Below are positions 11,969 through 45,475 of a stretch of 55,955 nucleotides of DNA, in pieces. Source of the stretch: Nitrososphaerota archaeon. Its GTDB lineage: Archaea; Thermoproteota; Nitrososphaeria_A; Caldarchaeales; Wolframiiraptoraceae. The notes under the pieces are model-generated. The model was not told the DNA's origin, ran no database searches, and saw only the letters and a list, made by a program, of their open reading frames with translations. The stretch covers positions 1 through 55,955 of the forward strand of contig JAGGTD010000003.1 of NCBI GenBank assembly GCA_021163925.1. The letters run 5' to 3'. Made by a program: the position numbers and the translations under genes. The number at the start of each line of letters is the position of its first letter. Position 1 is the first letter of the stretch.

Positions 11969-11977
11969 CCTAGGTAT
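11969..11977 (+). promoter_or_regulatory. CCTAGGTAT element at the uridine phosphorylase start
   Basis: The palindromic context TACCTAGGTA ends on the start codon of the uridine phosphorylase gene. The same nine bases CCTAGGTAT recur at 16030-16038 before the ABC permease genes. It could be a shared operator for nucleoside genes or chance. Confidence 0.25.
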
Positions 11978-12815: not shown

Positions 12816-12884
12816 GCTTAATTAGTAAGGTTCATCAGACTAGATCCGTGAAGAGTCGATGAAATCGATCGGAGGTAGGCTTGA

Positions 12885-14519: not shown

Positions 14520-14549
14520 CGCTCCTCATCCAAATATAGTCGCAAAGAA

Positions 14550-14557
14550 TTTATATC
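14550..14557 (+). promoter_or_regulatory. TATA box of the BMP binding-protein gene
   Basis: TTTATATC centred 25 bases before the GTG start at 14578. A separate promoter here would let the abundant binding protein be made in excess of the ATPase. Confidence 0.45.
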
Positions 14558-14577
14558 AGAAGCATAATAGAATACCC

Positions 14578-15996: not shown

Positions 15997-16005
15997 AACC
16001 CTCAA

Positions 16006-16021
16006 TCTTTTTATTTTTATA
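16006..16021 (+). terminator. T-rich stretch after the BMP gene
   Basis: TCTTTTTATTTTTATA directly after the stop of the binding-protein gene resembles archaeal T-run terminators. The same AT-rich run could serve as the TATA region for the permease genes beginning at 16064. Confidence 0.4.
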
Positions 16022-16029
16022 TGACCGAT

Positions 16030-16043
16030 CCTAGGTATACCTA
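16030..16043 (+). promoter_or_regulatory. Palindrome before the permease genes, sharing CCTAGGTAT with the udp start
   Basis: TAGGTATACCTA at 16032-16043 is a perfect 12-base palindrome placed about 20-30 bases before the first permease start, and the overlapping CCTAGGTAT matches the element at 11969-11977. Confidence 0.3.
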
Positions 16044-16063
16044 AACCAGCCGGAGGTGGAGAA

Positions 16064-23200: not shown

Positions 23201-23268
23201 CTAGCCTGGTTAAAAAGAGTTTAAGCTCGCCGGAACCTAGACTCGATGAGGATTTAGGCTTGAGGAGG

Positions 23269-29192: not shown

Positions 29193-30243
29193 TCATCGAC
29201 ATTATGGCCTTCTGGACGTGGAGCCTATTCTCGGCCTGATCGAATACCACCGAGTGGGGGCCATCGATCACCTCATCCGTCACCTCGTATCCCCTATCGG
29301 CTGGGAGGCAGTGCATGTAGATCACATCCCTCTTCGCAACCTCAAGCTTCTCCGAGTCGCAGATCCAGTCCCTATTCTTCTCGAATAGCTCCTTCATCCC
29401 ATCGAAGTCGGGCTTCGAGGCTTTCGGAGGAATATAGTTTAGGCTCAGCCAAGACTTTGGATAAACCACATCGGCGCCCTCGAAGGCCGCCTTCATATCA
29501 TGGACTATCTCGAATGATCCGCCGAACTCATCAGCATACTTCTTACATTGTTCGATCACCTTTGGATCTAGGTCAAATCCCCTTGGATGGGCTAGGACGA
29601 CATCCATCCCAAATCTCGTCGCGACCAAGACTGCGCTTTGGGGGACGGCTAGTGGCTTCTCGACGCTTGGGGTATATGCCCAGCTCATCACAAACTTCTT
29701 TCCCTCAACCTTCCCCAACTTCTCCTTAATCGTCATTATATCCGCCATGGCCTGGCATGGATGATACATGTCGCACTCCATGTTTATCACGGGGACATCG
29801 GCCCACCTCGCAAACTCTCTAATGATCCTATTCCCTCGGCCATAGATCCACTTAGCATGCTTCCCATAGATCCTGATGGCTATGCCATCACCATATCTTG
29901 AGAGAACCCTCGCGACATCGGCAATCCTCTCAGTCGTGTAAGCTATCTCATCTCCTGGAAGGGCTGGGGTGTAAATGGCGTCATGTGGGTCCAGGAAGTG
30001 GGCGTGGCCTCCGAGCTGCGTCATCCCAGCCTCAAAGCTATTCCTAGTCCTGAGAGATCTATTATAGAAGATCAGGAATAGAGTCTTCCCCTTGAGATAT
30101 GGGTGCTCGACCTTTTCCCTAAACTTCTTCTTCAAGTCCATGGCGGCGTCGAGGATTTGGTCAAGCTCCTCCCTACTCCACTCAATCGTCGTTATCCAAT
30201 CCCTACCACGATACATTCCAACATACTTGGGTAGCTCGGACAT
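29182..30243 (-). CDS. Knotted carbamoyltransferase, YgeW / N-acetylornithine carbamoyltransferase-like (copy 1)
   Basis: Aspartate/ornithine carbamoyltransferase superfamily, 353 residues. Carbamoyl-phosphate site SLRTR (63-67), HPCQ (161-164) and HCLP (311-314) are intact. The proline-rich segment WAYTPSVEKPLAVPQSA (188-204), RFGMDVVLAHPRGFDLDP and NRLHVQKAIM match the knotted branch that holds N-acetylornithine carbamoyltransferase and bacterial YgeW. Genetic context (cyclic amidohydrolase, second copy, AORs) favours a YgeW-like catabolic role, phosphorolysing a carbamoylated amino compound to carbamoyl phosphate, over arginine synthesis. It is the last gene of a three-gene minus-strand operon. 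Direction of reaction is inferred. Confidence 0.82.
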   Translation of the reverse strand: MSELPKYVGMYRGRDWITTIEWSREELDQILDAAMDLKKKFREKVEHPYLKGKTLFLIFYNRSLRTRNSFEAGMTQLGGHAHFLDPHDAIYTPALPGDEIAYTTERIADVARVLSRYGDGIAIRIYGKHAKWIYGRGNRIIREFARWADVPVINMECDMYHPCQAMADIMTIKEKLGKVEGKKFVMSWAYTPSVEKPLAVPQSAVLVATRFGMDVVLAHPRGFDLDPKVIEQCKKYADEFGGSFEIVHDMKAAFEGADVVYPKSWLSLNYIPPKASKPDFDGMKELFEKNRDWICDSEKLEVAKRDVIYMHCLPADRGYEVTDEVIDGPHSVVFDQAENRLHVQKAIMSMIMG

Positions 30244-30278: not shown

Positions 30279-31664
30279 TTAAGCTTTTCCACCTCCACAA
30301 ATCGGGGACAACCTTTCTGGACAACCTCTCTTAACATACTCTCCATATCCCTCGCGTCCAAGAACCTCTCCATCCCTATAGATTATCTCGCCTCTTAGGA
30401 TGGTCATGTAGATCCTCCCCCTACACATATACCCCTCATACGGCGTCCACCCAGATCTTTGATGGAGTTCATCGGCCTTAATCACCCACTCACGGTTTAG
30501 ATCGATCACGGTTAGATCCGCGTCCGAGCCTATCGCTATAACTCCCTTCTTGGGATAGAGTCCAAACCTCCTCGCTGGATTCTCGGAGAGCAGTCTAGCG
30601 AGATCCATGAGCGTGATCCTCCCCCGATTAACTCCCTCACTCAACATGAGTGGAAGTAGGGTCTCGATCCCCGGCAGCCCGCTCCTTATCGGCCAAATAT
30701 CACTCCATCCAGGCTCTCTATCCTCCTTGAATGTTGAGTAATGGTCTGTCGCAACTATATCTATCAACCCCCTTCTAAGACCTAGCCATAGAGCCTCCAA
30801 GTCCTCCCTCAATCTAAGGGGCGGGGTCATCTTGAGATATGGGCCAAGCCTCTCAACATCATCTCTCGTGAATATCAGGTAATGGGGGCATGTCTCACAG
30901 CTTATATCGACTCCACGATATTTCGCCTCCTCGATGAGCCTTAACCCCTCCATAGTCGTCAAGTGGACTATATGTACCCCGCATCCAGTCGCCCTCGAAT
31001 AGGCTATAACCCTGCCTATCCCCTCAACCTCCGCAAGCCTCGGCCTAGACTCATGGTATGCCATCGGATCTCTCCTATCCATCGACTTCAGCCTCTCGGT
31101 GTAGAGGTCTACGAGGAATCCATTCTCAGCGTGGAACATGCATAGCCCCCGACCCTTAACCATCTCCATAAGCCTCAAAATATCTCGATCGTCTATCATG
31201 TATGGCTTGCAGAGGAACAGCTTAAATGAGTTGACTCCAAGATCTATCAAAGAGTTTGGATCGAATCCTTCTAAGCTCCGTATATTTCCCGCATGTAGGC
31301 TGAAGTCTATGCGAGACCATCTCTCGCCGGCCTCAATCTTCTCTCTCAAAGCGTCAGCGGTGATATACGGCGTATCGGTAGGCATCTCGATTATCGTCGT
31401 GACCCCTCCAGCGGAGGCCGCCAAGCTTATCGACCTAAAATCCTCCCTCGGCCCAAAGTGTTTTGGATCATAGGCGTGGACGTGGACATCTATCGCCCCT
31501 GGGAGCACGTATCTCCCATTCAGATCTACTTCAACATCTCCCCTTGGTAGATGATTTATCGATGCTATGGAGACGATCTTTCCTCGATCGATCGCGACCC
31601 CGGCCTCGAAGACGCCCTCCTTAAGGACGAGCCTACAGTTCTTCAATACTAGGTCGACGGCCAA
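30279..31664 (-). CDS. Allantoinase / dihydropyrimidinase-like cyclic amidohydrolase
   Basis: Binuclear-metal amidohydrolase that opens cyclic ureides or amides. Metal ligands can be placed: H61 and H63 in GAIDVHVHAYD, carboxylated K148 in NSFKLFLCKP, H178 in CMFHAENG, H234 in GVHIVHLTT and D307 in IVATDHYST. CETCPHYLIFTRDDV is typical of allantoinases, so AllB is the nearest named type, though hydantoinases and dihydroorotases are close. Length is 461 residues and the start is TTG. It lies between two carbamoyltransferases on one strand, so ring opening to an N-carbamoyl product and its decarbamoylation are likely consecutive steps. No pyr-type neighbours support a dihydroorotase. Confidence 0.82.
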   Translation of the reverse strand: MAVDLVLKNCRLVLKEGVFEAGVAIDRGKIVSIASINHLPRGDVEVDLNGRYVLPGAIDVHVHAYDPKHFGPREDFRSISLAASAGGVTTIIEMPTDTPYITADALREKIEAGERWSRIDFSLHAGNIRSLEGFDPNSLIDLGVNSFKLFLCKPYMIDDRDILRLMEMVKGRGLCMFHAENGFLVDLYTERLKSMDRRDPMAYHESRPRLAEVEGIGRVIAYSRATGCGVHIVHLTTMEGLRLIEEAKYRGVDISCETCPHYLIFTRDDVERLGPYLKMTPPLRLREDLEALWLGLRRGLIDIVATDHYSTFKEDREPGWSDIWPIRSGLPGIETLLPLMLSEGVNRGRITLMDLARLLSENPARRFGLYPKKGVIAIGSDADLTVIDLNREWVIKADELHQRSGWTPYEGYMCRGRIYMTILRGEIIYRDGEVLGREGYGEYVKRGCPERLSPICGGGKA

Positions 31665-31722: not shown

Positions 31723-32757
31723 CTACTCATATAGCTTCTTACTCATGGTTAGGGTCAAGACCGCCATCTTGACGTATAATCCGTTCTCAGCCTGCTCGTA
31801 GATCACAGATCTTGGCCCATCCATAACCTCATCAGACGCCTCTTCACCCCTCAAGACTGGTAGGACGTGGGTGACTATCCCCTTCTTGTCCATTAGGTCG
31901 GCGAGGTCTTGGGTTAGACACCAATCCCTATATCTTCGATGGATCTCAAGCTCCCTCTCGACCCCGAATCTAGACGCACCGATGCTTAGGAGTTCCCAGC
32001 TCGCCCAGCTCCTCGGGAAGACCACATGAGCGCCCTCAACCGCTGGTTTAAGATCATTTGTTATCTCAAGGCTTCCACCACTTCTCTCCGCATTCTCCCT
32101 CGCCACCTTAACTATCTTGGGATCAAGGTTGAATCCGGGTGGATGGGCTACGACCACGTCCATCCCGAACCTCGTCATGATCAATAGCTCGGCCTGAATG
32201 CTGCATAGTCCTCTGAGCCTTGAGGCATAAGCCCACATAATCGTATACTTCTTCCCCTCAATCCTTCCAAGCCTCTCCCTGACGGTCATAAGGTCTTGGA
32301 TCGCTTGGGTTGGGTGATAGGTGCAGCATGCCATGTTTATCACGGGCTTCTCGGAGTGTCTCGCATACTCCATCACCGTCCACCTCCCAAGCCCATATCT
32401 GTAATCTATGGCCTTGTCGAGGCATCTAACCCCTATCCCATCACCATATCTCTCATACATCTTCGCCACATCCTTCAACCTCTCCCCAAACCCTATTCTA
32501 AGCGTTGAGACATCGATATATGACATATGGCCTCCAAGCAGGTTCATTCCAGCCTCGAATGCTGCTCTAGTTCTGGTCGATGGGGCATAGAAGATCGCGA
32601 AGAACGTCTTATCCTCTAGAAACTTTGGGAGCTTCTCCCCTCTCCTATGCATTTTCTTGAATTCCGATGCGAGTCTTATCGCCTCCTCTATCTCCTCAAC
32701 GCTCCAATCTTGAGTCGTGATCAAGTCTCTACCATATAGATCCACACCTATCTTCAT
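31723..32757 (-). CDS. Knotted carbamoyltransferase, YgeW-like, with altered active site (copy 2)
   Basis: Second carbamoyltransferase, 344 residues, first gene of the minus-strand operon. Carbamoyl-phosphate motif STRTR (60-64) and HPTQ (148-151) are kept, and RFGMDVVVAHPPGFNLDP shows kinship with copy 1. Two changes stand out: the HCLP motif is HVLP (297-300), losing the cysteine, and the proline-rich loop is WAYASRLRGLCSIQAE, lacking the prolines. It should therefore take a different amine partner from copy 1, or form a mixed enzyme with it. Its TATA box lies 28 bases before the ATG, opposite the promoter of the AOR operon. Confidence 0.8.
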   Translation of the reverse strand: MKIGVDLYGRDLITTQDWSVEEIEEAIRLASEFKKMHRRGEKLPKFLEDKTFFAIFYAPSTRTRAAFEAGMNLLGGHMSYIDVSTLRIGFGERLKDVAKMYERYGDGIGVRCLDKAIDYRYGLGRWTVMEYARHSEKPVINMACCTYHPTQAIQDLMTVRERLGRIEGKKYTIMWAYASRLRGLCSIQAELLIMTRFGMDVVVAHPPGFNLDPKIVKVARENAERSGGSLEITNDLKPAVEGAHVVFPRSWASWELLSIGASRFGVERELEIHRRYRDWCLTQDLADLMDKKGIVTHVLPVLRGEEASDEVMDGPRSVIYEQAENGLYVKMAVLTLTMSKKLYE

Positions 32758-32874: not shown

Positions 32875-33363
32875 TTGAGGAGAACTCTCCTAATCGATGC
32901 GGAAAAGTGTACGGGTTGTAGACTCTGCGAACTGGTCTGCTCATTTCAACATTACAAGGTCTTCAATCCAAGGAGATCTAGGATAACGGTGATAAGGGAT
33001 GAGGAGAAGGGAGTATTCATTCCAATGACGTGCCTTCAATGCGAAGATCCTCCATGCATGAAGACCTGTCCAACCCACGCGATCTATAGGGATGAGAATG
33101 GGGCGATTAGAATAGACTATGAGAAGTGTATAGGCTGCAAACTCTGCATAATGTACTGCCCATTCGGCGGAATCTCGATAGATCCCGTCACCATGAAGGT
33201 GATAAAATGCGATCTATGCGGAGGCGATCCAGAGTGTGTGAAGTACTGTCCGAAGGGAGCCATACAGTATGTTAGGGTGGATGAGGTTGGGGTCAAGAAG
33301 AGGATCGAGGGTGCCAAGAAGATTCATGAGAGGATTAAGGTGATCATGGGAGGTGAATCTTAG
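32875..33363 (+). CDS. Four-cluster [4Fe-4S] ferredoxin subunit, AOR partner 1
   Basis: Electron-transfer subunit of 162 residues resembling AorA/YdhY/HycB-type proteins. Sixteen cysteines form four motifs: CTGCRLCELVC, CLQCEDPPCMKTC, CIGCKLCIMYC and CDLCGGDPECVKYC, enough for four [4Fe-4S] clusters. No signal peptide, so it is cytoplasmic. Start TTG follows a clear promoter. The stop is two bases before the AOR ATG, so it is the direct redox partner of AOR 1. The second ferredoxin in this cluster keeps identical motif spacing, marking the pair as duplicates. Confidence 0.9.
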   Translation: MRRTLLIDAEKCTGCRLCELVCSFQHYKVFNPRRSRITVIRDEEKGVFIPMTCLQCEDPPCMKTCPTHAIYRDENGAIRIDYEKCIGCKLCIMYCPFGGISIDPVTMKVIKCDLCGGDPECVKYCPKGAIQYVRVDEVGVKKRIEGAKKIHERIKVIMGGES

Positions 33364-33365
33364 AG

Positions 33366-35300
33366 ATGTATAAGGGATATGCGGGGAGAATACTCCGCGT
33401 AGACCTAACGTCCAGAAGCGTCAAGGTGGAGCCGTTGCCGGATGGATTGGCGTTAAACTATCTGGGCGGGACGGGGTTCGCCTCCAGAATCCTCTGGGAT
33501 GAGGTGAACGCCGATACAGATCCACTAAGCCCGGAGAACGTCTTGATAATAGCGACAGGGCCCGTGAATGGAACAGCCTTCCCGCCATCCGGGAGATATA
33601 TGATGGCCTCAAAGTCTCCCTTAACAGGTATCTGGAGCGAGTCCCACGTCGGAGGCCACCTTGGACCAGAGCTGAAGTACGCAGGCTACGATATGATAGT
33701 CGTGAAGGGTCGAAGCTCTGAACCCGTATACCTGATGATCGATGATGATAGGGTTGAGGTTAGGGATGCCAAGAACATCTGGGGTAAGGATACGAGGGAG
33801 ACCGTGAAGACCCTATGGGATGAGCTTGGAGATAGATCGTTTAAGATCGCATGCATAGGGCCTGCCGGCGAAAACCTGGTCAAGATCTCCTCAGTCATCT
33901 CGGAGATGGGGAGGGCGGCTGCTAGAACGGGTATAGGAGCGGTCTGGGGTAGTAAGAGGCTCAAGGCAATAACGGTCAGGGGCTCAAGGGACATCGAGGT
34001 AGCCGATCCCGATGGATTCATGCAGCTCGTTAAGGAGTCGATCCGAATGTGCACCGAGGAGTTCTTCGGGAAGGCGGCTCAAGACACGCTTGGAAAGTAT
34101 GGAACTCCATGCTTGGTCGAGATGCTCAACTCGATTGGAAGGCTTCCGACAAAGAACCATTGGACAGGGGTCTTCGATAAGGCCAGCCTAATAGGCGGAG
34201 AGGCCATAAGGAGCAGGTATAGGTTTGCTCAAGCGCCATGCATGGCCTGCGTGATCCAATGTGGGTACATATCATATATTCGACATGGAAAATATGCTGG
34301 GACGATCACAAAAGGGCCTGAGTACGAGTCGATCTTCGCCCTCGGATCAAACTGCCTAGTCTCAGATATCGAGGCCATAATCCACATGAACATGCTCTGC
34401 AACCTCTATGGACTCGACACGATCTCGACTGGGAAGACTCTTTCATGGGCGATGGAATGCTATGAGCATGGACTCCTGACGAAGGATGATCTAGATGGGA
34501 CAGAGCTTAGGTGGGGGGATGTAGAGGCGATGATAAAGCTGATAGAGAAGATCGCGAGGAGGGATGGGGTTGGAGACATCTTGGCCGAGGGTGCTAAGAG
34601 GGCTTCGGAGAAGATTGGGAGAGGAACCGAGAAATATGTGATCCACGTCAAGGGGATGGAGGTCTCAGGCCAAGATCCGAGAGCACATAAATCCGCAGGC
34701 CTATCCCTCGCGATAGCGGTTAGAGGTGCAGATCACCTAAGAGCGTTATCCTCGATAGAGGAGCTTGGATTCACCCAGATAGTCGCCGATCGATATGGTG
34801 AGGATAAGGCCGACGCGTTGAGCGATAGGCTTAGCGAGGAGTATAAGGGCTTCCTGATAAAGGATATCGAGGACTTATACGCGATAACAGACTCCTTAAT
34901 CGTGTGCAAGTATGGGACCATGTGGCCTCCAATCTACTACTTCGACCACTTCGCCAAGCTCATACCACTCCTAACCGGGATGAAGGAGTATGGTGATGTG
35001 AGCTATGTCAGGCTCGTGGCCGAGAGGATATCGAATCTTAGGAGGTGTTTCAACGTGAGGGAGGGGATAACGAGAAGGGATGAGAACCTGCCCAAGAGAT
35101 TTACCGAGGAGCCCATGCCCCATGGACCAGCGAAGGGCCATGTCTGCAACCTCGAACCAATGCTCCGAGAATATTATCAATATAGGAGGTGGGATTATGA
35201 GACGGGTCTACCATATAGGGAGACGTTGGAGGAGCTCGGCCTAAAGGATGTCGCGGATGAGCTTGAGGCCATGGGGAGGGTTAAGAGGAGGGAGGGCTAA
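33366..35300 (+). CDS. aor: Tungsten-type aldehyde:ferredoxin oxidoreductase family protein, AOR 1
   Basis: Catalytic tungstopterin (or molybdopterin) subunit, 644 residues. The N-terminus YKGYAGRILRVDLT and GGTGFASRILWDEV are family marks. Cluster cysteines are C292-x2-C295-x3-C299 (CMACVIQC) and C514. Pterin-binding motifs NLYGLDT (346-352) and DSLIVCK are present, and SPLTGIWSESHVGGHLGPELKYAG forms the N-terminal cofactor site. The canonical pocket stretch here reads SGQDPRAHKSAG and VRGADHLRAL. Substrate is not readable, and family members oxidise aldehydes, reduce acids or work on aromatic thioesters. Context suggests a nucleobase or ureide step. Confidence 0.92.
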   Translation: MYKGYAGRILRVDLTSRSVKVEPLPDGLALNYLGGTGFASRILWDEVNADTDPLSPENVLIIATGPVNGTAFPPSGRYMMASKSPLTGIWSESHVGGHLGPELKYAGYDMIVVKGRSSEPVYLMIDDDRVEVRDAKNIWGKDTRETVKTLWDELGDRSFKIACIGPAGENLVKISSVISEMGRAAARTGIGAVWGSKRLKAITVRGSRDIEVADPDGFMQLVKESIRMCTEEFFGKAAQDTLGKYGTPCLVEMLNSIGRLPTKNHWTGVFDKASLIGGEAIRSRYRFAQAPCMACVIQCGYISYIRHGKYAGTITKGPEYESIFALGSNCLVSDIEAIIHMNMLCNLYGLDTISTGKTLSWAMECYEHGLLTKDDLDGTELRWGDVEAMIKLIEKIARRDGVGDILAEGAKRASEKIGRGTEKYVIHVKGMEVSGQDPRAHKSAGLSLAIAVRGADHLRALSSIEELGFTQIVADRYGEDKADALSDRLSEEYKGFLIKDIEDLYAITDSLIVCKYGTMWPPIYYFDHFAKLIPLLTGMKEYGDVSYVRLVAERISNLRRCFNVREGITRRDENLPKRFTEEPMPHGPAKGHVCNLEPMLREYYQYRRWDYETGLPYRETLEELGLKDVADELEAMGRVKRREG

Positions 35301-36461
35301 ATGGTGGACATATCGGTTGAGATCGCTGGGATAAAGCTCAGAAACCCCGTCCTAACGGCGGCTGGCCCACCATCGAGGGATGCCGAGGCGTTGATTAAGG
35401 CGGCTGAGGGCGGTGCAGGTGGATTGGTCGCGAAGACTATAAGCTTGAAGCCCGCCGAAGTCCCCAGACCATGCCTATCGGTCGTGAATCGAGAGTACTC
35501 GGTGAGGATCCCGGGATTCAAGACCTATACCACGTGTGGGTTTCTGAACGTGGAGCTTTGGTCGGATATACCGTATCAGAGGTGGGTTGAGCGCGAGTAT
35601 TCTCTTGTGAAGGAGAAGACGGGATTACCGTTGATAGCCAGCATAGGATATACTCCGGAGGAGGTCTCGAAGCTTGGGAGGCTCGTTGAGAAAGCTGGGG
35701 TCGATGGGATAGAGTTCTCAACCCATTACATAGGATTCGATCCAAAGCCGATTAGGGAGGTCGCTAAAGCCCTTAGAGAATCCGTTGAGATCCCCATCTT
35801 CGCCAAGCTCAGCCCCCATCTCCCAGACATAACTCCATTCGCAAAGGCGGTCGAGCCATACGTGGACGGCATAGTCGCGATAAACACCTATGGCCCAACC
35901 CTCCACATAGACATAGAGACCGGGAAACCACTACTCGGAGGGAAGAATGGATATGGATGGCTATCAGGGCCAGCTCTAAAACCAATAGCCGTCAGATATG
36001 TCGCCGATATAGCTAGAGCGGTTAAGGTTCCAGTCATAGGTGTCGGGGGGATAATGTCTGGGAGGGATGCGGTCGAGCACATAATGGCGGGAGCATCCGC
36101 GGTCGAGATATGCACTGGAGCGATCCTAGAGGGGCCGGGGATCTATGGGAGGGTTGCACATGAGGTCGAGGAGTTCCTAAAGACCCATGGATATGGCTCG
36201 ATCGAGGACATAAGGGGCATGGCCTTAAAATGGCTCCCCGAGAAACCGTTAAGAACCACACCCCTGCCGCCTAAGGTAGATCCGGAGAAATGCACGGGCT
36301 GTAGGATATGTGAGAGGGCATGCATCTATGAAGCCATAGAGATGGTCAAGGATCCGAGGACTGGGAAACTGATCGCGAAGACGATCGAGGAGAAATGCTA
36401 TGGATGCGGGCTCTGCGTGAGTATATGTCCGACGAGGGCGAGATACTTTGAGGAGGAATGA
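35301..36461 (+). CDS. PreA-like dihydropyrimidine/dihydroorotate dehydrogenase-fold flavoprotein with two [4Fe-4S] clusters
   Basis: FMN TIM-barrel protein of 386 residues with a ferredoxin tail. The barrel opens VEIAGIKLRNPVLTAAGPPS, has KTISLKPAE, AKLSPHLPDITPFAKAV, and phosphate site PVIGVGGIMSGRDAVEHIMAGASAVEICT, as in PreA and DHODH. The tail has CTGCRICERAC and CYGCGLCVSIC for two clusters. In the active-site loop, where DHODH class 1 and PreA have NLSCPH or similar, this protein reads EFSTHYIGF (138-146) with no cysteine. It sits between two ferredoxin-AOR pairs with zero and three base gaps, so it works with them, perhaps reducing or oxidising a ring C=C. It may play the part YgfK plays in bacterial clusters. 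Confidence 0.85.
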   Translation: MVDISVEIAGIKLRNPVLTAAGPPSRDAEALIKAAEGGAGGLVAKTISLKPAEVPRPCLSVVNREYSVRIPGFKTYTTCGFLNVELWSDIPYQRWVEREYSLVKEKTGLPLIASIGYTPEEVSKLGRLVEKAGVDGIEFSTHYIGFDPKPIREVAKALRESVEIPIFAKLSPHLPDITPFAKAVEPYVDGIVAINTYGPTLHIDIETGKPLLGGKNGYGWLSGPALKPIAVRYVADIARAVKVPVIGVGGIMSGRDAVEHIMAGASAVEICTGAILEGPGIYGRVAHEVEEFLKTHGYGSIEDIRGMALKWLPEKPLRTTPLPPKVDPEKCTGCRICERACIYEAIEMVKDPRTGKLIAKTIEEKCYGCGLCVSICPTRARYFEEE

Positions 36462-36464
36462 GAT

Positions 36465-36986
36465 TTGAAGCTCCTCATAATAGACTATGATCTATGCTCT
36501 GGTTGCAGGGTCTGCGAGCTCATATGCTCCATGGAGCACGCGGGGGTCTTCAAACCATCGGTCTCAAGGATAAGGGTCGTGAAGAACGATAAGCTGAGCA
36601 TAGACGTGCCCCTAGTCTGCATCCAATGCGAGAGCCCGACATGCGTGAACATCTGCCCAGCCAACGCGTTGAGCAAGGATAAGGAGACTGGGATAGTGAG
36701 GCTAGACCCAGATAAATGCATCGGCTGCAACCTCTGCATATTGAAGTGCCCATATCATGGAGTCTTCAAGACCCCTGATGGAGTCGTCGTGAAGTGCGAT
36801 CTATGTGGAGGAGATCCGAGATGCGTCAAATACTGTCCAACCGGAGCCTTACAATATGTTGAAGAGTCGCCCGAAACTAAGGCTAAGAGGGAGAAATCCA
36901 AGGAAAAGCTCCTAAAACTTCTAAGAGAATATGAATTGGAGAAGCCCGCCTTGAGGATTGCGAGGGTTGGAGGGAGCGGGGCTTGA
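36465..36986 (+). CDS. Four-cluster [4Fe-4S] ferredoxin subunit, AOR partner 2
   Basis: Duplicate of the first ferredoxin subunit, 173 residues. Motifs CSGCRVCELIC, CIQCESPTCVNIC, CIGCNLCILKC and CDLCGGDPRCVKYC give sixteen cysteine ligands in the same spacing. The C-terminus is longer and charged (ETKAKREKSKEKLLKLLREY), perhaps a docking helix. TTG start three bases after the PreA-like gene; its stop overlaps the TTG start of AOR 2 in TTGA. Transfers electrons between AOR 2 and an unidentified acceptor, possibly the PreA-like protein. Confidence 0.9.
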   Translation: MKLLIIDYDLCSGCRVCELICSMEHAGVFKPSVSRIRVVKNDKLSIDVPLVCIQCESPTCVNICPANALSKDKETGIVRLDPDKCIGCNLCILKCPYHGVFKTPDGVVVKCDLCGGDPRCVKYCPTGALQYVEESPETKAKREKSKEKLLKLLREYELEKPALRIARVGGSGA

Positions 36987-38896
36987 AGTATAAGGGATAT
37001 GTCGGCAGATATGCTTTAATTGATCTGACGAGACAGTCGATCCATATCGAGCCACTGAATGAGGGGCTTGCGAGAAACTATATCGGTGGAAGCGGTTTCG
37101 CCGCCAGAATCCTCTACGACATGCTCAAACCCGGGATAGATCCATTAAGCCCTGAAAATGTGGTGGTCGTCGCGACAGGTCCGTTAACCGGAACCCTATG
37201 GCCCACTACTGGGAGATATATGATGGCGTCGAAGTCCCCGTTGACTAGGATCTGGGGTGAGAGCCATGCTGGAGGACACTTCGGCCCAGAGCTCAAGTAT
37301 GCTGGATTCGATTATCTCGTGATAACTGGTAGGGGTGAAAGGCCGACCTACATCTACATCGATAACGGGAGGATCGAGCTTAGGAGGGCTGAACATCTAT
37401 GGGGGTTAAACGTCCACGAGGCGACGGACGCCATTAAGGAGGAGACCGATCCAAACGCGCACGTGGCATGCATAGGTCAGGCGGGAGAAAACCTAGTTAG
37501 GTTCGCCTCAGTGATAAGCGACTATCATAGAGCTCATGGGAGGACCGGTGTGGGAGCTGTTTGGGGAAGTAAGAGGCTCAAGGCCATAGCCGTTAGGGGG
37601 GATGGGGAGATTGAGGTCGCGGACCCGGAAAAGTTCATGGAACTCGTCGATGATGCTCATGAAAGGGTTCTAAAGCATCCACAGGCTAGAGACCTCGCAA
37701 AGTATGGAACACCGCTACTGGTTGGATATAAGCAGTCGATAGGAGAGTTCCCTACAAAGAACCATTGGACGGGAGTCTTCGATGGTGCGAAGGAGCTCAT
37801 GGCCGAGGTGTTGAAGGAGAGGTTTTGGGTGAGGGATAGGGCTTGCTTCTCATGCAGGGTTCAATGCAAGAAGGTATACACGGTTAGGGAGGGGAGATAT
37901 GCTGGAATAGTGTCCGAGGGGCCTGAATACGAGGGAATATACTCATTTGGATCAAATCTGGGAAACTCCGACTTCCCATCGATCTTCTACGCAAACTACC
38001 TCTGCAACAACTATGGACTAGACGCCATATCAACTGGATGCGTGATCGCCTTCCTAACCGAGTGCGTTGAGCGTGGGATAGTCGGTAGGGATGAGGTTGA
38101 TTGTCTCGACCTCAAATGGGGAAATCATGAGGCGTTCATCGAGCTAATCCACAAGATAGCGAAGCGTGAGGGTATAGGAGACCTCCTAGCTGAGGGGGTT
38201 AAGAGGGCGTCTGAGAAGATTGGGAGAGGCTCAGAATACTACGCGATCCACGTAAAGGGATTGGAGGTCTCAGGCCAAGATGGGAGAACCCATAGATCGA
38301 TAGGATTGAGCCACGCGGTCGCAAGCAGGGGCGCAGACCATCTGAGAGGACTCGTCACCGTCGACCAGCTTGGATATGAGGAGATAGCGGCGAAGAGGTG
38401 GGGTAGGGATAAGCTCCCAGACATATGCAACCCATATAGTGAGAAGTGGAAGGCCTTAGCAGTCAAGACAACCGAGGATGTCTACGCGGTGAGGGATCTA
38501 TTGATAGTATGCTGGTATACGGTCTCATGGCCTCCGATCTACTGGATCGAGGACTTCGCCAAGATACTTCCAGCCGCGACCGGAGAGGAGGCATTTGGAA
38601 GGGTTGAGGAGCTCTTGAAGATAGGCGAGAGGGTCGTGAATCTTGAGAGGTGCTTCAACGTTAGGGAGGGGATAACGAGGAAGGATGACAGGCTTCCGAG
38701 GAGATTCATCGAGGAACCCATGCCCGAGGGGCCTGGAAAGGGTCAAACCGTCAATCTCGACTTAATGCTGGATGAATACTATGATTTGAGGGGATGGGAT
38801 AGGGAGACCGGGATACCGAGGAAGGAAACCCTTGAGAGGCTTGGGCTCATCAAGGAGATCGAGGACTTGAGGAGGATGGGAAGGCTTCCAGAATAA
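36983..38896 (+). CDS. aor: Tungsten-type aldehyde:ferredoxin oxidoreductase family protein, AOR 2
   Basis: 637 residues, closely related to AOR 1. Cluster cysteines C288, C291, C295 (CFSCRVQC) and C510; pterin motifs NNYGLDA (near 345-351) and RDLLIVC. The pocket segment is SGQDGRTHRSIGLS followed by SRGADHLRGL, and the N-terminal site is SPLTRIWGESHAGGHFGPELKYAG. Residue differences from AOR 1 at these places suggest a related but different substrate. It is coupled to its ferredoxin and followed after nine bases by an amidohydrolase, so the oxidation product or its precursor may be handled by that enzyme. Confidence 0.92.
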   Translation: MKYKGYVGRYALIDLTRQSIHIEPLNEGLARNYIGGSGFAARILYDMLKPGIDPLSPENVVVVATGPLTGTLWPTTGRYMMASKSPLTRIWGESHAGGHFGPELKYAGFDYLVITGRGERPTYIYIDNGRIELRRAEHLWGLNVHEATDAIKEETDPNAHVACIGQAGENLVRFASVISDYHRAHGRTGVGAVWGSKRLKAIAVRGDGEIEVADPEKFMELVDDAHERVLKHPQARDLAKYGTPLLVGYKQSIGEFPTKNHWTGVFDGAKELMAEVLKERFWVRDRACFSCRVQCKKVYTVREGRYAGIVSEGPEYEGIYSFGSNLGNSDFPSIFYANYLCNNYGLDAISTGCVIAFLTECVERGIVGRDEVDCLDLKWGNHEAFIELIHKIAKREGIGDLLAEGVKRASEKIGRGSEYYAIHVKGLEVSGQDGRTHRSIGLSHAVASRGADHLRGLVTVDQLGYEEIAAKRWGRDKLPDICNPYSEKWKALAVKTTEDVYAVRDLLIVCWYTVSWPPIYWIEDFAKILPAATGEEAFGRVEELLKIGERVVNLERCFNVREGITRKDDRLPRRFIEEPMPEGPGKGQTVNLDLMLDEYYDLRGWDRETGIPRKETLERLGLIKEIEDLRRMGRLPE

Positions 38897-38905: not shown

Positions 38906-40249
38906 ATGGCCTCTAAGAACCTCTTGATCAAGGGCGGGACTATAGTCACGATGGATCGGGAGCGGAGGATAATCGAGGATGGAGCAATATTGGTCGAGGA
39001 TGGGAGGATAACGTCTATCGGAAAGGCGGATGAGTTTGGGGGAGAGAAGGCTGATAGAGTAATAGATGCGTCGGGAAAATACATCTTTCCAGGATTTATA
39101 AACTGCCACACCCACATGTTCCAAGTCCTCCTAAGAGATGTGGCCATGGACATGGTCCTCCTAGACTGGCTCAAGACCTCGATCTGGCCTAGTATAAGAC
39201 ATCTGAGGGAGGAAGACATCTACATAGCTGCTAAGCTCGGGATAATCGAGAACATCAGATCTGGGGTGACATGCATAGTCGATAACCAGTATCCCAGAAA
39301 CTATGAAGCATCGATAAGGGCCATGCACGAGTCTGGGATAAGAGGAGTTCTAGCATGTGGATACTATGAGATCAACGTCCCAGAGGATTTGAGGATGGAT
39401 GCGGATAAAGCCTTGAAGATATGCGAGGAGGTGATCAGGAGATGGCATGGGAGGGATGAGGGGAGGTTGAGGGTGTGTCCGGCTCCGATGCATCCATGCT
39501 TCGCCTCAAAGGAACTCCTACTGAAGTCCAAGGAGCTCGCGGACAAGTATCATACATATCTACACGTGCATACGGCTGAGAGCGTGAAGGATGTCGAGCT
39601 ACTTAAGCAGATGACCGGGAAGACCGATGTAGAATACCTCCATGAGCTTGGAATACTCGATGAGAGATTTCACGCCGTCCACGCGGTTCAGGTATCGCCG
39701 GGGGAGATGAGAATGCTCGCATCGGCTCACGCGAACATAATCCACAACCCAATCAGCAACGCATACACCGGAGCTGGGGTCGCCCCAATTCCAGAATATC
39801 TAAGGCTTGGATGTAACGTCGCCCTCGGGACCGATGGCCCGGCCAGCGGAGGGAATCACGACTTCCTCCAATCCATGAAGTTCACGGCCTTGATCCATAA
39901 GGGGTTTAGGAGGGATCCAACAGTCATGAGGGTCTCGGAGATATTGGAGATGGCGACGATAAATGGGGCCAAGGCTCTTGGAATGGAGGATGAGCTAGGA
40001 TCTCTTGAGGCTGGGAAGAGGGCGGACCTAATCATATTGGATCTCCATAAGCCTCACACCGTATACGTCCATGACCCGATCGCAAATCTAGTATATGCTG
40101 CGACGAGCGAGAACATCGAGACAGTCATAGTCGATGGCGAGATCTTGATGGAGGATAGGAGGATAACCTACATCGATGAGGAGGAGGTCATGGCTGAGGC
40201 CTCAAAGGTCGCGGAGAGGTTGATGGAAAGGTTTTCAAGACGTGGCTAA
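38906..40249 (+). CDS. Amidohydrolase of the Atz/Trz (deaminase) family
   Basis: Mononuclear metal deaminase or hydrolase, 447 residues. Metal ligands are HTH in FINCHTHMFQ, His in HVHTAESV, His in FHAVHAVQVS and Asp in ALGTDGPASGG. The nearest named groups are S-adenosylhomocysteine/methylthioadenosine deaminases, guanine deaminases and chlorohydrolases, which act on amino- or chloro-substituted purine- and triazine-like rings. It lies in the AOR operon, so deamination of an aminopurine or similar base is the best guess. Its first 60 residues are strikingly like those of the SsnA-like protein encoded at 41531-42895 on the other strand (both contain MDRERRIIEDG), so the two are paralogues. 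Confidence 0.82.
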   Translation: MASKNLLIKGGTIVTMDRERRIIEDGAILVEDGRITSIGKADEFGGEKADRVIDASGKYIFPGFINCHTHMFQVLLRDVAMDMVLLDWLKTSIWPSIRHLREEDIYIAAKLGIIENIRSGVTCIVDNQYPRNYEASIRAMHESGIRGVLACGYYEINVPEDLRMDADKALKICEEVIRRWHGRDEGRLRVCPAPMHPCFASKELLLKSKELADKYHTYLHVHTAESVKDVELLKQMTGKTDVEYLHELGILDERFHAVHAVQVSPGEMRMLASAHANIIHNPISNAYTGAGVAPIPEYLRLGCNVALGTDGPASGGNHDFLQSMKFTALIHKGFRRDPTVMRVSEILEMATINGAKALGMEDELGSLEAGKRADLIILDLHKPHTVYVHDPIANLVYAATSENIETVIVDGEILMEDRRITYIDEEEVMAEASKVAERLMERFSRRG

Positions 40250-40268: not shown

Positions 40269-41528
40269 ATGGCGTATGTAACCCATCTAAGATGTTCGAG
40301 GTGTGGCTCCGAGTATAGGCTTGAGGATGGGAAGGTTATCTGCGATAGGGATGACCTCGGACGCCTAGACATCTACTACGACTATGAGGCGATCTCAAGA
40401 ACCCTGACGAAAGAGGCTCTTGAGAAGAGGAGGGGCGGGGTCTGGAGATACTTTGAACTATTACCCGTGTCTAGGAGGTCTTCTATCGTGAGCCTCGGCG
40501 AGGGTGGGACTCCGATGATAAGATCTGAACGACTTTCCAGGCATCTCGGCTTAAAGAACCTATACCTGAAGGATGAGACGAGGAATCCAACAGCTTCCTT
40601 CAAGGATAGATCTATGACTGTTGGGGTATCGAAGGCGGTGGAGCTTGGGGTTAAGAAGACCTGCACAGCTTCGAGTGGAAATGCGGCCGCAGCCCTCGCA
40701 GCATACTCGGCCAAGGCCGGGCTAGAGTGCTATGCATTCGTCTTAGAGGAGGCGTCGATCGGGAAGATCTCCCAGCTCCAGCTCTATGGTGCGAAGGTGT
40801 TTAGAGTTAGGAGGGTTGAGGAGGGGGTTGATCCAACGGTCCAGCTACTCAGGCTCGTAGTCAAGAACTATGGCTGGTATCCATGCCCAAGCTTCGGGCC
40901 ATTCAACCCATATCAGGTTGAGGGGCCTAAGACGATATCATATGAGATCGTTGAGCAGCTTGGCTGGAGGATTCCAGACTGGATACTCATCCCAACAGGC
41001 TCTTCATGTCTCTTGGCCGGGATCTGGAAGGGGCTTAGAGACTACTATGAACTGGGCTGGATAGATCATCTTCCAAGATTGGCGGCGATCCAGTCCACTG
41101 GAAACGCGCCGTTTGTGAGGGCGTTTAAGGAGGGGATGGATCCGATGAATATAGAGCCTTGGAGGAATCCGAGGACGGTTGCGAGCGGGTTGATGGACCC
41201 ATATCCATGGGATGGAGACGCCGGCCTAATCGCCTTGAAGGAGACCGATGGTGTGGCCGAAGCCGTTCCAGACGATCTAATCCTAGAGGCTCAGAAACTC
41301 TTGGCGTCGATGGAGGGCATGTTCGCCGAGCCATCTGGAGCGGCGGGCTTGGCCGGGGCCATGAAGCTCTTAGAAGATGGGGTCATAGATCCGAGCGATG
41401 AGGTCGTGGTCCTCGTGACCGGCAGCGGCTTAAAGGATCCAGATATAGTTAAGAGTATGTTCGCGGAGCCTCCGATGATAGGTCCGAGCCTTGAGGAGTT
41501 TAGGAGGATGCTGAATCGATTGGGTTGA
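40269..41528 (+). CDS. Threonine synthase-like PLP fold-type II enzyme
   Basis: Pyridoxal-phosphate enzyme of 419 residues. PLP lysine in NPTASFKDRSMTVG, substrate loop SSGNAAAALAAYSAKAG, and phosphate-binding IPTGSSCLLAGIWKGL follow the archaeal threonine synthase pattern. The N-terminal zinc-ribbon-like part has CSRCG but only one of the second cysteine pair (ICDRDD). The plain call is threonine synthase. However, it is the last gene of a catabolic AOR operon, 19 bases after a deaminase, with no threonine-pathway neighbours, so a lyase role comparable to YgeX (diaminopropionate ammonia-lyase, same fold type) is a serious alternative. Confidence 0.75.
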   Translation: MAYVTHLRCSRCGSEYRLEDGKVICDRDDLGRLDIYYDYEAISRTLTKEALEKRRGGVWRYFELLPVSRRSSIVSLGEGGTPMIRSERLSRHLGLKNLYLKDETRNPTASFKDRSMTVGVSKAVELGVKKTCTASSGNAAAALAAYSAKAGLECYAFVLEEASIGKISQLQLYGAKVFRVRRVEEGVDPTVQLLRLVVKNYGWYPCPSFGPFNPYQVEGPKTISYEIVEQLGWRIPDWILIPTGSSCLLAGIWKGLRDYYELGWIDHLPRLAAIQSTGNAPFVRAFKEGMDPMNIEPWRNPRTVASGLMDPYPWDGDAGLIALKETDGVAEAVPDDLILEAQKLLASMEGMFAEPSGAAGLAGAMKLLEDGVIDPSDEVVVLVTGSGLKDPDIVKSMFAEPPMIGPSLEEFRRMLNRLG

Positions 41529-41530: not shown

Positions 41531-42895
41531 TCATCTTATCCTATCTAGCTCGGGCTTAACCTCCTTTAACCTATCCCAGAGCCTCTCCGCAGACCTCTGG
41601 GCGATCGCCTCAACCTCATCCTCATCTACGGTTAAGACCTTTCTATCCCTCATCAAGATCCTTCCATCAACTATAACCGTCTGGACATCATCTCCATCAA
41701 CCGTGTTCACCAGATGGCCGTAAACGGTCTCGGCGTTGAGCGGGGTTGGCAGGACATCGGGTTTTATGATGATTATATCCGCGAGCTTCCCAACCTCAAG
41801 CGAGCCAACCTCTTCGTCAACGCCATAGAGTTCGGCGCCCTTGATAGTCGCCATCTCCAAAACCTGTAGCGGCGTCATCATCCTCGGATCTCGATAATGG
41901 ACCTTGTGGAGTAGGTAGGCTGCCCGTATATTCTCGAATCCGTCGAAGATGTATCCATCGTTTCCCAGCCCGACCCTGATCCCCATATCGATCATCTTGG
42001 GGATGGCCGCGACCCCAACCGCATTCAACATATTGCTCATCGGGTTATGCGCGACGTTCGTCCCAGTCTCGGCCAAGATCTTCAACTCGTCATCGTTTAG
42101 ATGGACGCAGTGAGCCAAGACCACATCCCTCCCAAGAAACCCCACATCTCTAAGCCTCTCAACCGTCCGCTTCCCATATCTCTCCAAGTTATGATAGACG
42201 TCGACCAAGCCCTCAGACGTATGCATGGTTATCGGGACCTTCAGCTCATTAGCCTTCTCTCTGACGAGCTTTAGGAGGTCGTCGGATACGGTAAAGCTCG
42301 CGTGTAAGCATAGCATCCCTCTGACCCTCCCCTTATCCCCAACTTTCTCAATGTATCTGATGCACTCCTTAACCCCCCTCTCACCCTCCTCCCTACTATG
42401 CCTCTCCGTTGCCTCGAATGAGATGAAACCTCTAATCCCGATCCTCTCAACCGCTTCACCGATCCTATCCAAGACGCCCTCAATGGAGTTTGGGCCGGAG
42501 TAGGTGTCGGCGAATAGGGTCGTCCCAGTCTTCAAGAACTCTAGGCATCCTACCAAGGCGCTCGCGTATGCGTCGTCATGGGTTAATGCTTCATCGACAG
42601 GCCACCAAATCCATTGGAGGTTCTGCATGAAGTCTGTTGGAGGCTTGATCTTGGCGAAAAGTGGAGCGCCTCTAAGGAGCATTCCATAGAGATGGGTGTG
42701 GGAGCAGATCAATCCAGGCATCACTACGCATCCTTTAGCATCTATCTCCTCATCCGCCCTCACTCCCGAGAACTCGGACATCTTCCCAATCTTACTTATC
42801 TTTCGATCCTCGACCAATATCCCCCCATCCTCAATTATCCTCCGCTCCCGATCCATCGTGACGAGCAAACCATTCTTGATCAGAATGCTACCCAC
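41531..42895 (-). CDS. ssnA: SsnA-like amidohydrolase
   Basis: Metal-dependent amidohydrolase of 454 residues resembling bacterial SsnA, a member of the purine-degradation gene set. Ligands: H66 and H68 in GLICSHTHLYG, His in PITMHTSEG, His in VVLAHCVHLND and Asp in GLGNDGYIFDG. The stretch SGPNSIEGVLDRIGEAVE and NLQWIWWPVDEAL are SsnA-like. GTG at 42895 is preferred because GAGGTG lies six bases upstream and the protein then begins at the conserved ILIKNGLLVTMD; the frame is open back to ATG at 42952. It converges with the PLP enzyme gene and diverges from ferredoxin 3. Reaction unproven, probably deamination or ring opening of a purine-derived compound. Confidence 0.83.
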   Translation of the reverse strand: MGSILIKNGLLVTMDRERRIIEDGGILVEDRKISKIGKMSEFSGVRADEEIDAKGCVVMPGLICSHTHLYGMLLRGAPLFAKIKPPTDFMQNLQWIWWPVDEALTHDDAYASALVGCLEFLKTGTTLFADTYSGPNSIEGVLDRIGEAVERIGIRGFISFEATERHSREEGERGVKECIRYIEKVGDKGRVRGMLCLHASFTVSDDLLKLVREKANELKVPITMHTSEGLVDVYHNLERYGKRTVERLRDVGFLGRDVVLAHCVHLNDDELKILAETGTNVAHNPMSNMLNAVGVAAIPKMIDMGIRVGLGNDGYIFDGFENIRAAYLLHKVHYRDPRMMTPLQVLEMATIKGAELYGVDEEVGSLEVGKLADIIIIKPDVLPTPLNAETVYGHLVNTVDGDDVQTVIVDGRILMRDRKVLTVDEDEVEAIAQRSAERLWDRLKEVKPELDRIR

Positions 42896-43002
42896 ATTAA
42901 GCACCTCAATAACGAAGATGTCTTGATGATAGATAAGTGATTCACCTAACATGGAAAAATCTTAAATCAGGGGAGAGGTCGAGATCATGAGGGTGTCATC
43001 GA

Positions 43003-43473
43003 ATGCCATATATCTACGCCGATCCATCGAGGTGCACTGGATGCGAGATATGCGTCTTAACATGCTCATTCACATACTTCAAGGTCTTAAATCCGAAAAA
43101 GGCTAGGTTGAGGGTCGTGAGGATGGAGCCCGCGATAGATTTGGTGATCGCTTGCAGGAATTGTGAGAGGGCGCCGTGTATGGAGGCATGTCCGAACGAA
43201 GCCATCAAGAGAACATCTAAGGGGATAATCGTGGTAGATGAGGGGAGATGCGATGGATGTGGAAGATGCGTCGAGGCATGTCCCCTAGATGCCATCCACA
43301 TACCGCCCAATGGGAGGGCTCCGATAAAGTGTGTGGCCTGTGGAGCATGTGTTCAAGCATGTCCCGTGGGATGTCTCAAGATGGCTTATAGCTTTGAGGA
43401 GGCGTTTGAGAAGCGAAGGAACTATGCTGAGAGGCTTAAGGAGATAATCTTGAGCTTGAGGAATAGTGGATAG
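43003..43473 (+). CDS. Four-cluster [4Fe-4S] ferredoxin subunit, AOR partner 3
   Basis: 156 residues with CTGCEICVLTC, CRNCERAPCMEAC, CDGCGRCVEAC and CVACGACVQAC, sixteen cysteines for four clusters. It is more diverged than partners 1 and 2, lacking their CDLCGGDP word in the last motif. ATG start with GAGGGTG upstream, and a TATA-like AATCTTAAATC about 40 bases before it, in the short region shared with the divergent ssnA-like gene. It precedes AOR 3 by 88 bases; AOR 3 seems to have its own promoter as well. Confidence 0.88.
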   Translation: MPYIYADPSRCTGCEICVLTCSFTYFKVLNPKKARLRVVRMEPAIDLVIACRNCERAPCMEACPNEAIKRTSKGIIVVDEGRCDGCGRCVEACPLDAIHIPPNGRAPIKCVACGACVQACPVGCLKMAYSFEEAFEKRRNYAERLKEIILSLRNSG

Positions 43474-43561: not shown

Positions 43562-45475
43562 ATGCGGTATAAGGGATATGCTGGTAGAATTCTCTGGATA
43601 GATCTAACCCATGAGAAGGTTAGGGTCGAGGATTTCCCGGAGAAACTCGCGGAAAGATATCTCGGAGGATCTGGAATATGCGCGAGAATACTCTACGACC
43701 TAATCAAGCCCGGAATAGATCCACTCAGCCCAGAGAACGTCTTGATGTTCGCGACCGGGCCATTAACCGGAACCCTCTTCCCCCAAGCATGTAGGTATAC
43801 GGTCGCGGCCAAGTCTCCATTAACGGGTATTTGGGGAGAGTCTCATGCCGCCGGACACTGGGCTCCAGAGCTGAAGTTCGCGGGCTATGATGCGATAATA
43901 TTTCTCGGAAGGGCGTCTAAGCCCGTCTATCTCTGGATAGATGACGATGAGGTCGAGATCAAGGATGCTGGAGAGATTTGGGGGAGAACGGTCCTAGAGA
44001 CCGATGACATCCTAAGGGAAGAGCATGGAGAGGATGTTAAGGTTGCTTGTATAGGCCCTGCTGGAGAGAACTTGGTTAGATATGCTGCGATAATGAATGA
44101 CAGGTATAGGGCCGCTGCGAGATCTGGGATGGGGGCGGTCATGGGGAGCAAGAACCTAAAGGCCATAGCGGTGAGAGGCTCAAGGGACATCGAGGTCGCG
44201 GATCCAGAAGCATACATGGATCATGTTAGGAGATGGCATCGAAAGATGCTCAGCCACCCATTCATGCCCGACAGGGCGAAGTATGGGACAACTAACTTGA
44301 TCGAGCTTATGCAGAAGATCGGGAGGCTCCCAACCTATAACCTCCGTCAAGGGGTCTTCGATGAATACTATAAGATCGGCGGGGAGACCATTTACAGGAA
44401 ATATCTCGTTAAGCCCGTAGCAGACTTCGCATGCCTCCAGAGATGCGGGAGATACACAGCGGTCTATAATGAGCCATATAGGTGCATGGGCGGCGGCCCT
44501 GAGTATGAGACCCTATGCTCCCTAGGATCGAGATGCGGGGTATCGAATATCGAGGCGATCCTATACGGGAATTGGCTCTGCAACAATCTGGGGCTCGACT
44601 CCGTCTCCGCCGGAGGAACGATCTCATGGGCGATGGAATGCTATGAGCTTGGCCTGATATCGAGGGATGAGCTGGATGGACTCGACCTAAGATTCGGTAA
44701 TGAGGAGGCGATGATCGAGCTGCTCATAAAGATCGCTTATAGGAGGGGGGTTGGAGACCTATTGGCGGAGGGGAGCTGGAGGGCTGCGAAGAAGATCGGA
44801 AGGGGAACCGAGAGATACGTGATGCACGTAAAGGGCCAGGAGATAGCGTCTCAGGAGCCTAGAGCCCAGAAGTCCATGGGTCTGGCCATAGCCACGGCTG
44901 CGAGGGGAGCGGATCACCTCTATGGGTTCCCGGTCTTGGATGAGGTCGGGTTTGAGAAGGAGATTAGGGAGAGGTTTGGGGAGGAGTATCTGCCCGAGAT
45001 CGCTGATAGGCTGAATCCAAAGTATAAGGGGTTCATGGTTAAGGAGTGCGAGGACTATATGGCCGTGGTGGAGGCGGTTGGGGTATGTAAGTATGGAACC
45101 CAGATCCCCCCAGTCTTCTACTATCAAGACATGGTGGATGCGTTGAGGGTTACGTGTGGAATGGATGTAGATGTCAGAAAGCTCAAGATGATTGGGGAGA
45201 GGATAGTGAACCTGAATCGAGCATTCAACATCAGAGAGGGGATAAGTAGGAAGGACGACACCCTACCCGAGAGATTGACGAAGGTTCCAGCCCCCCTAGG
45301 GCCGGCCAAGGGCCACGTCGTCGAACTAGATCAGATGCTTGACGAATACTATCGATGTAGGGGATGGGATTTAGAGACCGGTAAGCCGACCTATGAGAAA
45401 TTACTCTCACTCGGATTGGAGGATGTTGCAGAGGATCTATTGAGGAAAGGATTGATAAGGAAGGCTGAGAGCTAA
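43562..45475 (+). CDS. aor: Tungsten-type aldehyde:ferredoxin oxidoreductase family protein, AOR 3, with Asp at a cluster-ligand position
   Basis: 637 residues from ATG at 43562, chosen because it begins MRYKGYAGRILWIDLT like its paralogues; the frame is open back to 43466 without family-like sequence. Pterin motif NNLGLDS (351-357 area) and GVCK with C509 are normal, and the pocket segment reads ASQEPRAQKSMG then ARGADHLYGF. Unusually the first cluster ligand is not cysteine: the motif is D288-F-A-C291-L-Q-R-C295 where AOR 1 and 2 have C-x2-C-x3-C. The aspartate may ligate the cluster, as Asp14 does in Pyrococcus ferredoxin, or the cluster may be [3Fe-4S]. Preceded by ferredoxin 3. Confidence 0.9.
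   Translation: MRYKGYAGRILWIDLTHEKVRVEDFPEKLAERYLGGSGICARILYDLIKPGIDPLSPENVLMFATGPLTGTLFPQACRYTVAAKSPLTGIWGESHAAGHWAPELKFAGYDAIIFLGRASKPVYLWIDDDEVEIKDAGEIWGRTVLETDDILREEHGEDVKVACIGPAGENLVRYAAIMNDRYRAAARSGMGAVMGSKNLKAIAVRGSRDIEVADPEAYMDHVRRWHRKMLSHPFMPDRAKYGTTNLIELMQKIGRLPTYNLRQGVFDEYYKIGGETIYRKYLVKPVADFACLQRCGRYTAVYNEPYRCMGGGPEYETLCSLGSRCGVSNIEAILYGNWLCNNLGLDSVSAGGTISWAMECYELGLISRDELDGLDLRFGNEEAMIELLIKIAYRRGVGDLLAEGSWRAAKKIGRGTERYVMHVKGQEIASQEPRAQKSMGLAIATAARGADHLYGFPVLDEVGFEKEIRERFGEEYLPEIADRLNPKYKGFMVKECEDYMAVVEAVGVCKYGTQIPPVFYYQDMVDALRVTCGMDVDVRKLKMIGERIVNLNRAFNIREGISRKDDTLPERLTKVPAPLGPAKGHVVELDQMLDEYYRCRGWDLETGKPTYEKLLSLGLEDVAEDLLRKGLIRKAES

Follow-up and report, generated by a model that had tools for sequence, protein, structure and literature searches.

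An aspartate at the first cluster-ligand position marks a clade of predicted tungsten oxidoreductases encoded near nucleobase-catabolism genes

AOR 3 is encoded at 43562..45475 (+) in a 55,955-nucleotide stretch of DNA from a Nitrososphaerota archaeon (GCA_021163925.1, contig JAGGTD010000003.1, positions 1 to 55,955; hereafter, the window). By its fold and its PF01314 match, it is a WorL large subunit of the AOR/WOR family of tungsten oxidoreductases, in which aspartate (Asp288) occupies the place of the first cluster cysteine, Cys288 of Pyrococcus furiosus AOR (PfAOR). The reading that we favour, and regard as fairly probable, is of a ferredoxin-linked WorLS enzyme in which AOR 3 provides the tungstopterin subunit with an Asp288-ligated [4Fe-4S] cluster, and which serves nucleobase catabolism with a purine or pyrimidine intermediate as substrate. 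AOR 3 would then form one half of a two-subunit, ferredoxin-linked oxidoreductase of class II. Its single cluster, most likely a stable [4Fe-4S] of the kind found in P. furiosus WOR5/ASOR, would be bound by three cysteines (C291, C295, C509) and the D288 carboxylate, and would relay electrons between the W-pterin and the partner WorS3 with its four clusters. The clade-specific Gln293 and Gln73 (PfAOR numbering), the latter near Arg76 of the cofactor side in the sequence, would probably tune this cluster. The enzyme would work alongside a PreA/UacX-type flavin reductase, a dihydropyrimidinase/allantoinase-like ring-opening enzyme, SsnA and carbamoyltransferases. The substrate class that we infer is a purine or pyrimidine intermediate rather than a simple aldehyde, perhaps at the xanthine-dehydrogenase step.

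The AOR 3 frame (43562-45475, +) encodes 637 aa and translates in the loop region as VADFACLQRCGRY, with the motif D288-x2-C291-x3-C295 (ADFACLQRC). The start at 43562 is preferred over that of the longest open reading frame (43466) since the alignment with homologues begins at residue 1 and a start at 43466 would make the frame overlap WorS3. The Asp288 codon, GAC (44423-44425, +), is followed by TTC (44426-44428), GCA (44429-44431) and the TGC codons of the second and third cluster ligands, Cys291 (44432-44434, +) and Cys295 (44444-44446, +), while the codon of the fourth, Cys509 (Cys494 of PfAOR), is placed at 45086-45088 (+) from its residue number. The C-x2-C-x3-C motif is kept in AOR 1 (33366..35300, +; CMACVIQC), AOR 2 (36983..38896, +; CFSCRVQC) and AOR 4 (CANCMMPC). 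In all of this the first-pass annotation, which had reported the aspartate, the retained C509 and the intact motifs of the other AORs, was accurate. A read error at the Asp288 codon is excluded, since turning TGC/TGT into GAC/GAT takes two substitutions and an Asp codon (GAC or GAT) stands in 44 distinct homologous sequences. Loss of the cluster was likewise considered and is ruled out by the columns of C291, C295 and C509, which are invariant.

A search of the genome collection with AOR 3 returned 79 loci. At position 288, Asp is encoded in 44 of the 45 distinct loop-bearing sequences (27 GAC, 17 GAT), a count that leaves out about 15 further matches from the genome search of the phylum of a Thorarchaeota genome (G400), and the sole Cys (TGT) belongs to a Baldrarchaeon (L001/L117). 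The alignment that the first-pass annotation had proposed therefore bears out an Asp conserved in a subfamily; a subfamily homologue with Cys, which would have told against this, turned up in that one Baldrarchaeon as opposed to the other 44 sequences. In an alignment of 124 rows Asp is present in 33 of the 34 clade rows and in none of the 90 others (88 Cys, 2 Gly). It is the most discriminating of the columns that mark the clade, which include Pf73 Gln, Pf95 Ala, Pf288 Asp, Pf293 Gln and Pf450 Tyr, Gln293 in the same cluster loop being present at 100%. The 34 non-redundant clade rows group together with support of 100/100 in a tree of the 124 rows and in a careful tree of 55 rows.

Since the Cys-bearing Baldrarchaeon nests within the Asp clade with weak support, and a tree that forces the Asp rows to be monophyletic survives the AU test (p-AU 0.084), both histories of Asp288 stand: it may have arisen by a single change, or by a single change together with a reversion. 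That a single change is possible and that one member still has Cys would suit the view that the replacement of Cys288 was neutral or slightly harmful, spread by descent and has no functional meaning. We consider this very improbable, for the mean identity within the clade is 66%, Asp288 is one of just 182 columns, out of 619, that stay constant in 33 of the 34 rows, and the same change occurs in WOR5. Asp288 is nonetheless not indispensable, one clade member having Cys.

Relatives that share the AOR 3 loop are 57-67% identical to it and come from Thorarchaeota, Hermodarchaeota, Hadarchaeota (including a Hodarchaeaceae MAG), a Thermoplasmata MAG and Thermoproteota-labelled MAGs among the archaea, and from Endomicrobia and other bacterial MAGs. 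The gene was found in 46 of the 227 genomes of the phylum of G400, in 4 of 28 in that of a Hadarchaeum genome (G411; one copy partial) and in 1 of 243 in that of a Thermoplasmata genome (G403). In the phylum of the window itself (398 genomes) no other genome, including a sampled one of the same genus, gave a match above 51% identity, and the AOR loci read there carry Cys at the cluster position, so that lateral acquisition of AOR 3 is likely.

The AF2 model of AOR 3 (pLDDT 95.7) superimposes on 1aor with a TM score of 0.97, AOR structures being the closest, and PF01314 matches with 439.8 bits; both the N and C AFOR domains are present, as expected of the AOR fold, which suggests a tungsten bis-pterin cofactor. 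The four-Cys site (Pf 288, 291, 295, 494) has three Cys, with Asp as the first, which does not decide on AOR/WOR membership, since WOR5 and WOR4 also depart from it and are counted in the family. Thr243, Glu313 and His448 of the second shell are kept and Tyr427 is replaced by Gln, leaving the set of the aldehyde-oxidising AOR sensu stricto incomplete. AOR 3 thus resembles PfAOR (1AOR) in fold, in these three residues and in three of the four cluster Cys, but has Asp for Cys288, Gln for Tyr427 and Glu for Asp489, as well as a WorS subunit and a nucleobase gene context.

For the aspartate the nearest precedent lies within the family; the first-pass annotation had overlooked it, as it had the Gln427 signature and the nucleobase gene context described below. 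The Fe4S4 cluster of P. furiosus WOR5 has three Cys and one Asp as its ligands (PMC12096430), and in a short-fragment search ADFACLQRC of AOR 3 aligns with ADYGCPVNC of 6X6U (residues 298-306), which would make WOR5 Asp299 the Asp ligand. With WOR5/ASOR (aliphatic sulfonate ferredoxin oxidoreductase; 6X6U, 6X1O) AOR 3 shares the AOR/WOR fold, the two-subunit WorLS form, the presumed link to ferredoxin and the Asp at the first-cysteine position (ADYGC aligned with ADFAC). In the fold comparison, however, AOR 3 is 28% identical to WOR5 as against 41% to PfAOR; Thr243 is absent from WOR5, where His stands in place of Tyr427, whereas AOR 3 keeps Thr and has Gln, and the gene contexts differ. Membership of AOR 3 in WOR5/ASOR is excluded by the retained Thr243, the Gln at 427 and its greater closeness to AOR, and the Asp swap looks independent of that in WOR5.

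Asp-ligated [4Fe-4S] clusters occur also in P. furiosus ferredoxin, D. africanus ferredoxin III, dark-operative protochlorophyllide reductase, Fnr and PqqE (PMC5715301), and in NsrR (PMC5411485), so that the Pyrococcus ferredoxin cited in the first-pass annotation is a valid precedent for Asp ligation in general (PMC5715301). That annotation had further supposed that the cluster, its potential shifted by the aspartate, could interconvert between [3Fe-4S] and [4Fe-4S]. Asp288 might not bind iron, and AOR 3 would then carry, as in WOR4 or the Asp-ligand ferredoxins, a [3Fe-4S] cluster or one that interconverts with [4Fe-4S]. In WOR4, where Cys is replaced by Gly, 3 Fe and a [3Fe-4S] EPR signal were found (PMC12096430), the Asp-bound iron of Asp-ligated ferredoxin clusters is easily lost (PMC5411485), and Hadarchaeal sisters of the clade (L016, L065) have Gly at 288. 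This reading is nevertheless unlikely in our judgement: a residue able to act as ligand is held in 44 of 45 sequences with no drift, and the WOR5 Asp at the same position belongs to a [4Fe-4S] cluster of three Cys and one Asp. WOR4, compared here by its published description, resembles AOR 3 in that one of the cluster Cys and the second-shell Tyr have been replaced; the substitutes are Gly and Trp in WOR4 but Asp and Gln in AOR 3. An Asp-ligated [4Fe-4S] cluster in AOR 3 is judged two to three times likelier than [3Fe-4S] by analogy, and a stable Asp-ligated form likelier than a freely interconverting one, P. furiosus WOR5/ASOR being the nearest precedent. Ligation by Asp288, cluster type and potential are inferred; the residue is fixed in the subfamily at a ligand position and has its equivalent in a three-Cys, one-Asp enzyme. 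The ligand role first proposed for it is probably right, but this kind of swap is already known from WOR5.

Other departures from the four-Cys site were seen among the loci. In the Hadarchaeal sisters (L016:1984-3894 and L065:5001-6917) the first cluster position is Gly in place of Cys (GGFGCWATC), which resembles the WOR4 loss but on a separate branch, and these genes adjoin PreA, HyuA and SsnA-like genes. In other members of the family the third cluster ligand is His (L108:1501-3390, CPGCAVAH) or Ser (L034:7655-9463, CASCIARS).

Upstream of AOR 3, as in most Asp-clade loci, lies a gene for a polyferredoxin small subunit, WorS3 (43003..43473, +; 156 aa), whose 16 ligand Cys in four motifs provide for four [4Fe-4S] clusters, and the pair thus corresponds to a class II WOR (WorLS) as defined in PMC13328260. 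Two further small subunits are encoded in the window, WorS1 (32875..33363, +) and WorS2 (36465..36986, +). In the WorS3 partners of two Asp-clade enzymes, L009:4510-4998 (CTGSGEC) and L010:4615-4995 (CTGGGEC), the third cluster motif is without its second Cys, so that the partner chain may also hold odd clusters.

The WOR clades recognised number 92, and only five include an enzyme with a defined physiological role (PMC13328260). AOR 1, AOR 2 and AOR 3 all fall within one superclade of 58 rows (SH-aLRT 99), in which every row has Gln at the position of PfAOR Tyr427, compared with 2% elsewhere; in AOR 3 this is Gln431, whose codon is placed at 44852-44854 (+) from the residue number. Tyr427 belongs to the catalytic second shell and has been proposed to hold the aldehyde in position. 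Around these genes the window encodes a second carbamoyltransferase (OTC2; 29182..30243, -), a HyuA/allantoinase/dihydropyrimidinase-like cyclic amidohydrolase (30279..31664, -), carbamoyltransferase 1 (OTC1; 31723..32757, -), a PreA/UacX-like flavoenzyme with a dihydropyrimidine-dehydrogenase domain and two [4Fe-4S] motifs (35301..36461, +), a 5'-deoxyadenosine-deaminase-like amidohydrolase (38906..40249, +; NF005557, 410.9 bits, cut-off 522), a PALP enzyme of threonine-synthase type (40269..41528, +; PF00291 and NF006050, 368.3 bits, cut-off 303) and an SsnA-like amidohydrolase (41531..42952, -; NF005540, 400.8 bits, cut-off 444). A uridine phosphorylase and a Bmp-type nucleoside ABC importer (ATPase, binding protein and two permeases) lie upstream of the AOR 1-3 region (11976..18126, +). 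The matches to SsnA, PreA and HyuA are below the equivalog cut-offs, so that the exact substrates of these neighbours are uncertain.

The association recurs across genomes. Of 34 superclade loci, 24 have genes of nucleobase catabolism (PreA/UacX, dihydropyrimidinase/allantoinase-like, SsnA, uridine phosphorylase) no more than 5 kb away, as against 0 of 45 other AOR loci, in raw counts that ignore kinship; by the same count, such genes accompany 14 of 22 Asp-clade and 10 of 12 sister loci. Among the 227 genomes of the G400 phylum, again with kinship ignored, AOR 3 and PreA occur together in 43 and singly in 3 and 4, respectively, and HyuA or PreA lies near 39 of the 46 AOR 3 genes. The Baldrarchaeal locus, of about 12 kb, reads AOR1-WorS1-SsnA-deaminase-PreA-WorS-AOR2-WorS3-AOR3. 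In Hadarchaeota AOR1 adjoins OTC1, HyuA accompanies OTC1-AOR1, or AOR1 stands beside an ABC ATPase and two permeases; in locus L197 the ABC and permease genes beside AOR 1 are homologous to those of the window's importer. PALP adjoins WorS3-AOR3 in locus L190, where OTC2 is also near AOR 3. In the Thorarchaeota AOR 3 locus genes for an M24 peptidase-fold protein (L004:593-1783, -) and a PfkB kinase (L004:1839-2720, -) lie between PreA and HyuA.

Such a neighbourhood might denote membership in a pathway and not purine chemistry, AOR 3 being an ordinary aldehyde oxidoreductase that clears aldehydes arising later in the degradation of nucleobases, such as the malonate semialdehyde produced from beta-alanine. 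Almost every relative so far characterised is an aldehyde oxidiser (PMC13328260), and AOR 3 retains Thr243, Glu313 and His448 of that mechanism, but Tyr427 is replaced by Gln throughout the superclade, and the three different superclade AORs in one cluster exceed the need of a single semialdehyde step; we hold this alternative to be possible, if doubtful, and prefer a nucleobase intermediate as the substrate.

A known pathway with a similar gene set is the reductive uric acid pathway of E. coli and C. difficile, which comprises XdhD, YgfK/UacX, SsnA, HyuA, YgeW/UacY, YgeY and YgeX (PMC12507026). UacX-like, SsnA-like, HyuA-like, carbamoyltransferase and PALP genes are found in one region of the window, and carbamate kinase (above cut-off) and a YgeY-like M20 hydrolase elsewhere in the same genome; the match is in gene content only, by superfamily, with most scores below equivalog cut-offs. 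The PALP protein, unlike YgeX, scores as a threonine synthase, and instead of XdhD/xanthine dehydrogenase the window has three W-AOR/WorS pairs. No XdhD-type gene (PF02738) was found in the window's own genome (80.9% complete) or in 12 of 14 other clade genomes tested; two Asp-clade and three sister-clade genomes have xanthine-dehydrogenase-type genes. In the 227 genomes of the G400 phylum such genes (42) and AOR 3 (46) are never found together, against 8.5 co-occurrences expected, which fits a replacement, although phylogeny alone could cause it. A tentative wider reading is that the Gln427 clade, with an Asp-ligated cluster in one branch, carries out nucleobase hydroxylation or dehydroxylation in anaerobic archaea and some bacteria, in place of molybdenum xanthine dehydrogenase, in a ferredoxin-driven degradation of purines (or pyrimidines). 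It is not our main claim, because the mutual absence may reflect lineage and five clade or sister genomes have xanthine-dehydrogenase-type genes; AOR 3 may instead serve a pyrimidine pathway or the oxidation of a downstream semialdehyde.

As far as the openly accessible literature shows, a second candidate Asp-ligand clade, within a superclade tied to nucleobase catabolism, is new, and no report of W-AORs in nucleobase catabolism was found in the part of it that was searched. With a second, apparently independent change from Cys to Asp at the same ligand of the family, the role of this residue becomes testable across WOR5 and AOR 3, the Cys-bearing Baldrarchaeota member offering a natural control within the Asp clade. 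The gene context of the clade points to a definite class of substrates for assay, and suggests purine or pyrimidine chemistry by tungsten enzymes in Asgard and other anaerobic archaea.

Two further features of the window concern the same family and its cofactor. AOR 4 (50669-52498, -) has P. furiosus formaldehyde oxidoreductase as its nearest PDB match (441.6 bits, compared with 368.7 to AOR) and is therefore FOR-like and outside the nucleobase superclade. At 23194-26471 two adjoining MoeA-like genes were recognised by eye, the second with a long C-terminal extension, a putative pair that is consistent with synthesis of the W-pterin cofactor.
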